Below, one piece after another: positions 30,219-34,342 of a DNA stretch of 64,000 nucleotides. Numbering within the stretch: position 1 is the stretch's first letter; each line of letters starts with the position of its first letter. Made by a program: the position numbers and the translations under genes. The notes under the pieces are model-generated. The model saw only the letters and a program-made list of their open reading frames with translations. It was not told where the DNA came from and searched no databases. The DNA is from an uncultured Synergistales bacterium (lineage in GTDB: Bacteria > Synergistota > Synergistia > Synergistales > Aminobacteriaceae), in the NCBI GenBank assembly GCA_905233565.1, contig CAJOCL010000005.1, positions 77,090 through 141,089 of the forward strand, given 5' to 3'.

Positions 30219-33200
30219 TTATTTCTTCATAAAGAACATTCCTGCCAAGAAAATCATTATGCTCCAAGTTCCAACATCACAGCCTCCGCTTTGACTTTCA
30301 TTTTCGTGTATTGTGGCGACAACGGGAGCGTAGAACCTTCCGGCGGTAAAGTCAGCGGAGAGTCTAACAACGTCAGTTGAATCTGTGAATGTGAATGATG
30401 CATCGAGATCTTCAGAGTCCGCAAGAAGCACTAGCGGTAAGCCTTCCGGTGGAGTCACGTTGAGCTGTACGGTGAATGAATATGTGCCTGTGGCTGATGG
30501 AGTGAAGGCCGGGAGGACTGCTAGGATTACGGTGGAGTCGTTCGCCGATGATAAGCCAGATTGTGAGGCGGGAGGGGCATAGGCTGATGACATTGCGCTT
30601 GAAGGCCAAGTTATGATTACGCCGTTGTCGCAGTAAACATCGTTGCGATCAATGTTAGGGCAACTGCTAAGGTCTAAGGCTGTAAGCTGATTTTCTTTGC
30701 ACCAAAGTCTTCGCAAAGCAGTATCATTGCTCACATTCAGCGTAGTAAGTCTGTTGCCCGTACAGCCCAGAGTCTCCAGTTTGGTTTTGTTGCTCACATC
30801 TAATGCGGTAAGTTGATTATCATAGCAATATAATTGCTGCAAGGCGGTACATTCGCTTACATTTAGTGAAGCCAGCTTGTTATAGGAGCAATCAAGAATC
30901 CACAAAGCGGTACACCCGCTGATATTCAAAGTGGCAAGCTGGTTTTCTCCACATGATAGCTCCTGCAGGTCAGTACAACCGCTCACATCCAAGTCTGTCA
31001 AGTTATTCCCTTCGCAGACTAGGGTTTTCAGGTTTACGAAATACTTAATTCCTTGCAATGAGTTAATACCATAGTAGCCATAGTGGAATACATTTATTTC
31101 TGTCGTATTTTCTATTTCTGTTCTGCTGAGAATGCCGTCTTTGTCTGTGTCAATTTCTTCGCTGATATACCTGCGAAACAGCTCATCCGGGAAATGCGCC
31201 TCATCAATCGGAATATTTTCCAAAACGACATCATCTGAGGCGGGAATATCATCCGAAACAGGAATATCCTCGCTCTCAGGCTCAAGTGTCAAGTCCTGTA
31301 TAACATCACCCAAATGGATAACTATTTCAACGGAGTTGGACTTATACTTTTCCTTTGAAGCCGTTACTGTGTAAGTTCCAATTTCTTGTCCTGTGAGATC
31401 GAAATAATACAGCCCGTTTACGTCTGTTGTGGTTGATTTCAGATTTTTATCGCTGCCTGTCCTGCGAACCCTGACAGCTGCTCCGGCTATGTATGAGTTG
31501 TCGGAAGCGTTCCGAATTGTTCCGCTAAGTGAAATCTCAGAAGGAGTCAGAGTCTTGTCCGCGCTCACATCTTCAGATGACACTATTGCGACATCAATGG
31601 ACTCTGAAATATAGCCGGTCTTGTCGAAACTCAGGATATATTTTCCTGCTTCAAGCGATATTGCGTATTTCCCTTGAGCGTCAGTAAATGTTCTTCCAGC
31701 CAGTACAGACTTGATTTTGCCGTTCCGTAGTTTTTTCTCGGAGGCTGTTACGCTGACACCTTCAAGCACTTTGTTCGGATCTGTTTTGTCCCTGACAGTG
31801 CCGTATATTGTTCCGAAATTTGCATCTTGAGCCTCGATCCCAACTTTATCAAAAGCGGCTTTGATTGCAGCGAGTTTTTCGGCGGACAAGTTGATTTTCA
31901 TCGCAGCCCAGATTACGCACCTTCGGACATCATAGAAATTTGAGGTAGCGTCAAGTCCCATGTGCATAGACTCGTACCAGACTTTTCCAAGTTCGTCCCA
32001 AGTCAGGCCGTTTGCAGGATTATTATCCTTGTGCATGAGGTAGGCAACATGACCAACGAATAATAATCCGAACAAGTGTGCATCTTGCTTAGGATTTTTT
32101 TTGAGAACTTTTAGTTGGTATCCTGCCAACGAGTTTTCGTTATATGGATTTGCTAAGTCTCTGTAGCACTCGAAATTTTCTCCGTATGCCACGATACCTG
32201 AATACCCGCCATGTCGCCAATCTTCTGCTTTTATGCAGGCGAATATATCAGCATATCCTTCATTTAAACTGCTGACATAAATATTGTTAGTACCAGCAAG
32301 ACAGCAAGAAGCAATGTATTGCAACACGGCATGAGTCGTTTCATGCGTCAGAACCTCAATGTCAAATGCTTCGGTGTACCTGTAATCGTCTTTTTTATCC
32401 GTGATCCATAACTGTTGGAGTCCGTGATTCCAAGCGGCATTACTTTTTCCGATGCTGAGTTTTAACCCTTTAAGGATTTCTAAATCATAGGCGTGAACAA
32501 TAACTTCGACCTTTCCGCCTTTGCCGTCAAGAGAATCTCTGCCGAAACGGTTTTTCCACCACTTCATAATGTCTCGCATATTAGTGTACGCGGACACTGC
32601 TACGGGATCATTCCAAGTGTTGGTAAGACTTTTAACAGGGGACAAAATATTCTCTTTAATTTCAACATGGAGTTTGGGATCATACATTACATAATGGATA
32701 CTGCTTGTGCGTCTGTGTATTTCTATTTTTCGTAAAACATCAAAGCTGACCGTGTCTCCGGATTCATTTTTCCCATCTGCGCTCACAGTGTTGAACGCCA
32801 TGTTTGACATGTTTATGATTATCTGTCCCGTATCAGCATTCACTAACACATCATCATCAGCGTATTCACTTCCTGATGTTCCGTAAACTCTCACGACATA
32901 CGCATAAACGGGTTTATCCGCGTAATCCTCAAGAGAATACACTATACGTTCTGTGCGCTCCGTATCAATCTCAACATCTCCTGAATACGCAGAGGCAACA
33001 ATAGACTCAGCCTGCGAGGCCGTAAGATTAATCTTCATGTCCGCGCTGTCAAGAATATTTGACGCAAGAATGCTCGAATGCATGAAATCTCCCCTGCCTG
33101 AAGCATTAACAGAGGCCATCAAACTGCGCCCGTATACTTTCACGCCTTTGTACATTTGCTGGAACGAGTATTCAGCCCCGTAACTGTTGGAAGTTGCGAG

Positions 33201-34073
33201 AAATGTTTTAAGCTCTTTATCTGGACTCCTCATCCCAAGTTCATCACGGAGAACCGTAACAGCATCGAGAGCATCATCGGCATTCCGAATATCAAAGCTG
33301 ACGTACTGCCCCTCAATTTCTGTAATATCTCCAGAATCATTGCGTGTTATCCCGATGTCTCCGCTTGAGGCTTCCTCAATGCTTAGTACTTTGATTGCGC
33401 TGTTATCTCGTGTGCGTCTGCGGATTACCCGAAGCTCAAACGTCTTAGGCTCTGCTGATTTCCCGTTGTAACTTGCCGTTGCCGTCAATGTTACGTCTGT
33501 GTCTTCAGCCTGCCTCGTTACAGTACCGTCCGTAGCTACTGCCCCCGAACTGCTTGACCACGAAATATCCGCGCTGTTAATTTTTGTAGGGAGCGTCAGA
33601 TTTTGTGTAACGTATTTCGGGTTGTCGCCGTCAGCATAACCTATGACGATTTCGCTGAGAGAGTATTCGGCAATGAAAATGTCAGTGTCAAGCCACCGTG
33701 CATAAAGCGTAATATCCTGCGTAACCTTGTCCCCGTTTTCGCCGAACTTGAATAAAACCGTGCGCCCTTTGTCCTTGAACCAGCCTGAAAACACATAACC
33801 TTCTTTTACAGGGTTTTCAGGTTTCGTTACTGTACCGCCCGCAGGGACTTTCTGACTTGTTACGCTGCTTCCGCCGTCTGAGTCAAATGTTACGGTGTAA
33901 TATATCTGACTCTGGTCTGGTACGGGGGTAACGTCAGGACTTTGATTCGGTGTCGGATCATTATTGACGCTTACCTCACTTCCGCTGCTTCCTCCGCAGC
34001 CGCCTGTACACATTACGGCTGTGAAAAGGAGCATACCCAACATGAATAACGCGAAAAACTTACGATTATACAT
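30219..34073 (-). CDS. Large secreted thermolysin-type metallopeptidase with InlB repeat, carboxypeptidase-regulatory-like and leucine-rich repeats, and Synergist-CTERM-like tail
   Basis: A 1284-residue exported multidomain protein. Order: signal sequence with Cys22/Cys26 (possible lipoprotein); an InlB/Listeria-Bacteroides repeat (about 57-128, VTFDSDGGS...GWF..LYARW); an Ig-like strand region (135-215); an FTP/PepSY-type propeptide (230-420); an M4-like gluzincin domain with zinc motif H577-E-T-T-H581 and third ligand Glu605 in NEGYAD; two carboxypeptidase-regulatory-like beta domains (about 775-945); a calcium-loop-like DTDKDGILS; five leucine-rich repeats of the L..L.V..CT.L..L.C..N.L type (about 1030-1150); and a C-terminal SGGCDVG, helix and KK. 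It is likely a surface protease displayed to host or microbial targets. ATG behind AGGAGGCA. Confidence 0.9.
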   Translation of the reverse strand: MYNRKFFALFMLGMLLFTAVMCTGGCGGSSGSEVSVNNDPTPNQSPDVTPVPDQSQIYYTVTFDSDGGSSVTSQKVPAGGTVTKPENPVKEGYVFSGWFKDKGRTVLFKFGENGDKVTQDITLYARWLDTDIFIAEYSLSEIVIGYADGDNPKYVTQNLTLPTKINSADISWSSSSGAVATDGTVTRQAEDTDVTLTATASYNGKSAEPKTFELRVIRRRTRDNSAIKVLSIEEASSGDIGITRNDSGDITEIEGQYVSFDIRNADDALDAVTVLRDELGMRSPDKELKTFLATSNSYGAEYSFQQMYKGVKVYGRSLMASVNASGRGDFMHSSILASNILDSADMKINLTASQAESIVASAYSGDVEIDTERTERIVYSLEDYADKPVYAYVVRVYGTSGSEYADDDVLVNADTGQIIINMSNMAFNTVSADGKNESGDTVSFDVLRKIEIHRRTSSIHYVMYDPKLHVEIKENILSPVKSLTNTWNDPVAVSAYTNMRDIMKWWKNRFGRDSLDGKGGKVEVIVHAYDLEILKGLKLSIGKSNAAWNHGLQQLWITDKKDDYRYTEAFDIEVLTHETTHAVLQYIASCCLAGTNNIYVSSLNEGYADIFACIKAEDWRHGGYSGIVAYGENFECYRDLANPYNENSLAGYQLKVLKKNPKQDAHLFGLLFVGHVAYLMHKDNNPANGLTWDELGKVWYESMHMGLDATSNFYDVRRCVIWAAMKINLSAEKLAAIKAAFDKVGIEAQDANFGTIYGTVRDKTDPNKVLEGVSVTASEKKLRNGKIKSVLAGRTFTDAQGKYAISLEAGKYILSFDKTGYISESIDVAIVSSEDVSADKTLTPSEISLSGTIRNASDNSYIAGAAVRVRRTGSDKNLKSTTTDVNGLYYFDLTGQEIGTYTVTASKEKYKSNSVEIVIHLGDVIQDLTLEPESEDIPVSDDIPASDDVVLENIPIDEAHFPDELFRRYISEEIDTDKDGILSRTEIENTTEINVFHYGYYGINSLQGIKYFVNLKTLVCEGNNLTDLDVSGCTDLQELSCGENQLATLNISGCTALWILDCSYNKLASLNVSECTALQQLYCYDNQLTALDVSNKTKLETLGCTGNRLTTLNVSNDTALRRLWCKENQLTALDLSSCPNIDRNDVYCDNGVIITWPSSAMSSAYAPPASQSGLSSANDSTVILAVLPAFTPSATGTYSFTVQLNVTPPEGLPLVLLADSEDLDASFTFTDSTDVVRLSADFTAGRFYAPVVATIHENESQSGGCDVGTWSIMIFLAGMFFMKK

Positions 34074-34142
34074 ATTATGTTGCCTCCTGTTTGGTTTTGC
34101 TGAAATAAAGATAACACATGACCAATCCCCTCCGCCTTATGA

Positions 34143-34148
34143 TATAAT
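34143..34148 (+). promoter_or_regulatory. -10 element of candidate small RNA
   Basis: A perfect TATAAT. Transcription would start near 34155, a few bases before the first paired base of the folded element at 34159. The best -35 match (ATGACC, 34118-34123) is weak and at 19 bp. Confidence 0.55.
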
Positions 34149-34154
34149 TGAAGC

Positions 34155-34247
34155 GTAAAATAAGGGGATAGGAGTAAGCAACTCCTGTCATGTGCGAAAC
34201 TATATTTTCAGCAGATTTATTATAGCACATCCCTTATTATTTTTTTA
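34155..34247 (+). ncRNA. Candidate three-way-junction small RNA with its own terminator
   Basis: Between the metallopeptidase and lepA lies a compact fold. P1: AATAAGGG (34159-34166) with CCCTTATT (34231-34238), 8 bp. P2: AGGAGT (34170-34175) with ACTCCT (34181-34186), 5-nt loop. P3: ATGTGC (34190-34195) with GCACAT (34225-34230), enclosing GAAA and a possible CTATA/TATAG extension. Joining strands are GAT and GTC. The P1 3' strand runs into ATTATTTTTTTATG, so P1 doubles as terminator stem. All pairs are Watson-Crick. The promoter is placed just upstream. It does not match a riboswitch or housekeeping RNA that I recognise. A lepA leader is less likely, as the U-tract ends 95 bp before lepA. 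Confidence 0.6.
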
Positions 34248-34342
34248 TGCCAATTTCAATTTTCATATAAAAATCATCATTCCTTGAAAATTTCTCCAAG
34301 ACGCTGAAGAAACAATGATATTATTCTCCTTGAGGTGAAAGA

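Follow-up and report, generated by a model that had tools for sequence, protein, structure and literature searches.

The predicted small RNA at positions 34155-34246 (+ strand) of the window, that is, the whole 64,000-nucleotide stretch of contig CAJOCL010000005.1 analyzed herein, is, as judged from sequence, one copy of an undescribed multicopy family in gut Synergistaceae. We consider it probable that this ~92-nt molecule is a structured cis-antisense RNA, which would repress the adjacent surface-lipoprotein gene through a loop private to that copy in an IS10-like fashion. Each copy of the family is probably a gene-specific off-switch for its neighboring gene, which usually encodes an exported protein.

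Architecture of the putative antisense RNA

The initial annotation had described this segment as a compact three-way-junction RNA with its own promoter and terminator. The TATAAT on which its promoter was based (34143-34148) was confirmed and proved to lie inside a perfect extended -10 element TATGATATAAT (34138-34148, + strand), from which we infer transcription with a start at ~34155. No -35 consensus was found at this + strand promoter, and for that reason a sigma-70 scan did not list it. The motif TRTGNTATAAT was present at the antisense promoter in 40 of 41 distinct copies, in whose selection it had not been demanded. The delimitation of the RNA to 34155-34246, with both ends predicted, was based on its fold, on covariation, and on the match of a covariance model of the family (R2), which covered 34138-34249 with 81.5 bits. 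The + strand fold of 34150-34255 reached -31.2 kcal/mol with a z score of -5.16, a value that none of 200 shuffled sequences equaled, and the reverse strand of the same segment gave z = -2.5.

In the minimum free energy (MFE) structure, three helices were predicted on the + strand: P1 of 8 bp (34159-34166 with 34231-34238), the P2 hairpin of 9 bp (34167-34175 with 34181-34189, spanning 34167-34189), and the P3 hairpin of 6 bp with a large loop (34190-34195 with 34225-34230, spanning 34190-34230), P1 and P2 being also backed by covariation in the family. The lengths previously proposed for P1 and P3 thus held, whereas P2 had been given as only 6 bp and the joining strands drawn at the junction are absent from the MFE structure of the window copy. 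The seven-T tract reported at the end of P1 was located at 34240-34246, starting one base past that helix, and together with the 3' strand of P1 it forms a putative intrinsic terminator (34231-34246, + strand); P1 and a T-rich tail were present in nearly all copies. The view that the small RNA is self-contained, bringing along a promoter and a terminator (both predicted from sequence), was supported. As had been noted, there is no gene inside the element, and only a mechanical 64-aa ORF (33964-34158, + strand) overlaps its promoter end. The RNA had also been said to match no known class by eye, and correspondingly, an Rfam search of the window element returned no family at the gathering score or at E <= 1, with only chance-level matches at relaxed E-values; in Rfam 15, no family reached the gathering threshold at 12 loci with other copies.

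Opposing promoter and leader of the lipoprotein gene

A promoter on the opposite strand had been missed in the initial annotation, and therefore neither the position of the RNA antisense to the leader of a lipoprotein gene nor its membership of a multicopy family had been seen. The sequence ATTATAGCACA (34219-34229), which comprises the end of the P3 loop and the 3' arm of P3, reads on the opposite strand as a second perfect extended -10 element, TGTGCTATAAT (34219-34229, - strand), with a predicted mRNA start at ~34212. This mRNA promoter recurs across the family, always oriented towards the gene. In the window, the predicted mRNA would cross P2 and the antisense promoter region and then run through a Shine-Dalgarno sequence, GGAGG (34083-34087, - strand), to an ATG at 34073. 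Since the minus-strand promoter reads into that gene, the + strand transcript would be a cis-antisense RNA to the lipoprotein mRNA leader. The putative regulated gene (30219-34073, - strand), identified by its ORF and a domain search, encodes a lipoprotein of 1284 aa that comprises a List_Bact repeat, an Ig-like domain, FTP and M4 (thermolysin-type) peptidase domains, carboxypeptidase-regulatory-like repeats, and LRRs.

The predicted 5' tail of this mRNA, termed V (34195-34212, - strand), is A-rich, hypervariable between conserved boxes, and private to each copy within a genome, and is the exact complement of the antisense P3 loop sequence. It is followed by box II, CACATGAC on the mRNA (34187-34194, - strand), which would pair with box III, GTCATGTG (34115-34122, - strand), an assignment based on covariation and strand-specific wobbles; in the MFE structure of the window-copy leader, all 8 positions of the II:III helix are paired. 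The complement of P2 also folds as a hairpin within the mRNA leader. The Shine-Dalgarno sequence (34087-34083) is located outside the antisense overlap, and its sequestration by the leader fold was not a general feature (mean unpaired probability, 0.51).

GCUGAAA, at the predicted 5' end of the window-copy mRNA (34202-34212), is complementary to UUUCAGC past box III (34099-34109), which would extend the leader stem. Pairing of V with the sequence 3' of box III was tried as a family feature and rejected, as only in 39 of 73 cases was a copy's own pairing better than the median for cross-pairing; pairing of this type was striking only in the window copy and a few others.

Distribution of the family

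Diverged relatives of the element, several per genome, were found by BLASTN. A pattern of two short boxes gave 42 matches in 17 of 43 same-genus genomes and none when reversed. Covariance models were then built (R1, followed by R2 from 89 members), and R2 detected ~235 copies in 42 Synergistaceae genomes at E <= 0.001, its E-values being rough because the calibration was shortened. Copies were present in 40 of 43 genomes of the window's genus (1-37 each), with the highest numbers in genomes G028 (up to 37), G033 (29), G010 (21), and G030 (21), as well as in 2 of 4 genomes of a second genus, where they follow the same plan in different letters. None was detected in the other 36 genomes of the family at E <= 0.001, or at E <= 1e-4 in the 136 genomes from other genera of the order. 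The window's own genome carries seven copies at E <= 0.05, the last two of which are weak. All named genomes in which the rest of the element was kept are Synergistaceae/Synergistales MAGs, most of them labeled as from goat or red deer. The matches to the DNA pattern outside Synergistaceae (six genomes and one viral contig) lacked the rest of the element and were read as chance.

Nearly all copies possess two opposed perfect extended -10 elements, an apparent invariance that is partly by construction, since one or the other -10 motif had served to select several of the family sets.

Covariation on both strands

All three helices of the + strand RNA appeared in the MFE structures of 38 of the 41 pattern-selected copies. 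In an alignment of 85 distinct members (A4), which was fitted to the model and thus leans towards structure, 88.8% of the P1-P3 cells pair, and 294 double-change cells were counted against 88 ± 11 in shuffles and 30-53 when the alignment was slid. Every pair of the main P1 helix (8 of 8) and of P2 (7 of 7) showed compensatory changes; in P3, 97% of cells are paired and the variation is mostly G-U, a pair that holds only on the + strand. An alignment of 12 members made by MAFFT from sequence alone pointed in the same direction (16 double-change cells against 8.4 ± 2.1), and RNAalifold recovered P1 and P3 from it; an earlier MAFFT alignment (A1, 39 copies), in which P1 was misregistered, was left out of the covariation analysis. 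The check that had been suggested earlier, a covariance model searched against relatives, was thus positive, with P1-P3 covarying strongly.

The mRNA strand showed covariation of its own. Box II has the consensus GCACATGAC, and box III, beyond the antisense promoter, has the consensus GTTGTGTGC or GTCATGTG. In 100 sequence-aligned leaders, 90.4% of the II:III cells pair, compared with 83.8% in shuffled and 17-51% in slid alignments, and 75 double-change cells were found against 20.4 ± 4.6 (maximum 50). The wobbles were strand-specific, as G-U, valid on the mRNA, occurred in 152 cells, and A-C, valid on the other strand, in 33. The helix was also present in 63 of 73 predicted leader folds, a set chosen for II:III complementarity at no fewer than 7 of 8 positions. 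From these predicted structures, a conserved fold is encoded on each strand of one DNA segment. The two folds share P2 and use box II differently: on the mRNA it pairs with box III, and in the antisense RNA the complement of box II is paired to that of the TGTGC in the mRNA promoter.

Private loops and neighboring genes

At most positions of V, identity among the copies of G010 and G030 was ~20-50%, with the flanking -10 element and box II ~90% identical. The calculated pairing of loop and tail averaged -20.1 kcal/mol for cognate and -3.0 for non-cognate partners in G010, and non-cognate pairs came within 5 kcal of the cognate in 0 of 272 cases in G010 and 7 of 156 in G030. No conserved partner of V was found downstream of box III, and its own antisense loop is therefore the only partner found. 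The conserved boxes common to the copies (II, A', promoter complement) could permit some cross-talk.

Of 100 copies with enough context on the mRNA side, 72 lead into a Shine-Dalgarno-preceded ORF of exported type, comprising 34 prepilins and 38 with signal-peptide, N-terminal-TM, or lipoprotein-like features, and the corresponding figure on the antisense side was 16 of 102; the call of exported type is a simple heuristic that favors exported readings equally on both sides. The domains among sampled targets were diverse (M4 peptidase, GLUG, He_PIG, CXXCXGXG, and N_methyl). Some copies precede no clear exported gene, including G000:C4 in the window's genome. At this weaker copy (G000:C4:40207-40312; L170, L215), the nearest mRNA-strand frame resembles an HTH regulator.

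Proposed mechanism and alternative explanations

As proposed here, the antisense promoter would face the lipoprotein-gene promoter, with its transcript overlapping that promoter and the 5' leader. The mRNA would consist, in order, of the short A-rich copy-specific tail V, a leader closed by the II:III helix, the Shine-Dalgarno sequence, and the AUG, and the antisense three-way junction would display the exact complement of V in its P3 loop. By analogy with IS10, the P3 loop would most likely seize its own mRNA by the free 5' tail; that this loop, which is variable, could bind a target had been suggested earlier and is supported as probable. Pairing could then spread from V through box II and P2, so that the II:III leader fold would be broken and a long duplex formed; expression would therefore fall via decay, attenuation, or reduced translation. 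With many such modules before exported-protein genes, each with a private loop, a dedicated repressor per gene is thus envisaged.

The main rival explanation is that control is exerted by the act of convergent transcription, through polymerase collision or promoter occlusion, with the antisense RNA largely a by-product. The promoters do face each other ~70-80 bp apart in every copy, and such interference can coexist with RNA pairing, to which it may well add. As the sole account we regard it as unlikely, for it leaves unexplained the covarying P1-P3 helices with their terminator, the wobble-tolerant II:III helix of the mRNA, and the private loops. The conserved object might instead be chiefly the leader of the mRNA, acting as a structured 5' element for mRNA stability or translation beside which the antisense promoter is secondary, as the covariation of II:III on the mRNA strand and its occurrence in 63 of the 73 leader folds, selected for that very complementarity, would allow. 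Yet P1 and the T tract are located upstream of the predicted mRNA start, outside the mRNA, and all 8 P1 pairs covary nonetheless, so that we judge this reading quite improbable.

Still less credence is given to the + strand RNA as a riboswitch, a lepA leader, or a free-standing trans-acting small RNA, although its self-contained promoter, fold, and terminator would suit any of these. The riboswitch alternative and the link to lepA, both raised in the initial annotation, were not borne out: there is no conserved unpaired core as for a ligand, the P3 loop is hypervariable, and no consistent gene follows on the + side of the copies; among 30 same-genus lepA loci examined, the element adjoins only that of the window's genome. 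By position, moreover, every copy is fully antisense to the adjacent leader. That the element is merely a DNA repeat, be it a miniature transposon, an invertible promoter segment, or a set of regulator operator sites, would agree with its multicopy nature and short inverted repeats (TGTGC/GCACA, CACATGAC/GTCATGTG), but appears equally remote, as its position and orientation are fixed relative to the start codon, the antisense promoter has the same orientation in all Synergistaceae copies seen, and the wobble asymmetry points to RNA.

Extending the preferred cis-antisense reading, we tentatively propose a possibility that we hold to be rather doubtful as it stands: the copies of a genome may constitute a bank of orthogonal antisense switches, whose loop/tail barcodes would silence or release each of up to dozens of surface-protein or prepilin genes and so let gut Synergistaceae vary their surface with no rearrangement of DNA, ~110 bp encoding two conserved opposite-strand RNA folds that could not coexist in the duplex. 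If the preferred reading is true, this would be an undescribed RNA family with dozens of copies, each facing a different exported-protein gene, in a phylum for which our literature search, directed at small or antisense RNAs of Synergistetes, showed no described family among the papers listed. Such naturally diversified, mutually orthogonal antisense/leader pairs would bear on surface variation of gut bacteria and could serve as gene-control parts, and the covariance model R2 makes the family searchable.

Comparison with known antisense systems

In the window and its relatives, extended -10 elements oppose each other and the predicted transcripts overlap, and at the sequence level the element is a cis-antisense RNA. 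It would work like RNA-OUT and resembles the DonS type, but fits the context that defines them in neither case. Pairing in IS10 begins where the loop of RNA-OUT meets the unstructured 5' tail of RNA-IN (PMC4737173). The element shares with RNA-OUT/RNA-IN of IS10/Tn10 its cis-antisense nature, the opposed promoters, and a predicted antisense hairpin loop complementary to the mRNA 5' tail; given the predicted start, the P3 loop (34196-34224) covers the complement of V (34212-34195, - strand). In contrast to the single hairpin of RNA-OUT, however, it forms a three-way junction, faces a structured leader with a covarying II:III helix, and occurs in many diverged copies mostly before exported-protein genes, with no transposase. 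Membership in the IS10 type was hence rejected, as that type targets a transposase and has the Shine-Dalgarno sequence in the pairing region, whereas the targets here are exported proteins or prepilins with the Shine-Dalgarno sequence outside the overlap.

The DonS-type RNAs of Bacteroides PULs likewise form a family of cis-antisense RNAs, which are short (78-128 nt), occur several to a genome, and lie at envelope-protein genes, whose expression they lower (PMC7366714). They belong to another phylum and face susC homologues only, whereas the present targets are unrelated exported proteins and prepilins (an M4-peptidase/LRR lipoprotein in the window; prepilins, GLUG, He_PIG, and similar proteins elsewhere), and membership was thus not assigned. 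The shared covarying fold of the Synergistaceae family was established in the present analysis. An antisense transcript is also found at the type IV pilin gene pilE of Neisseria meningitidis, but from a single locus, starting 3' of pilE and spanning the whole coding region and 5' UTR, and with no significant change in pilE transcript or pilin level (PMC4402397). A type I toxin-antitoxin system, in which a short toxic hydrophobic peptide is the target, was also rejected, as the window target has 1284 aa and the others are mostly long secreted proteins or prepilins of ~150-230 aa.

Observations on prepilin-like genes and their leaders

Genomes G010 and G030 (L171-L200) each contain more than 10 dispersed prepilin-like genes, every one with its own copy of the element, whose mature parts are strongly diverged and whose leader boxes are conserved. 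At four loci (L118, L128, L130, and L132), mature proteins that are dissimilar follow a near-identical leader and signal peptide (MKKYAVMVLAVMLAGVMAAGAWA-like), which suggests that the leader travels jointly with the signal sequence as a cassette. Many prepilin-type leaders also contain, between box III and the Shine-Dalgarno sequence, a second motif of two hairpins, such as TTTGCAG-TAACCATT-CTGCAA followed by TTCATCTG-TAATAGGCGG-CGGATGAA, which is absent from the window copy and matches no Rfam family. Its stems vary between copies around a conserved ATAGGCGG-like loop, as at L117 from 7165, L112 from 5533, and L199 from 1127 (all reverse complement) and L019 from 1640 (+ strand), and it is possibly a separate regulatory RNA of pilin mRNAs.
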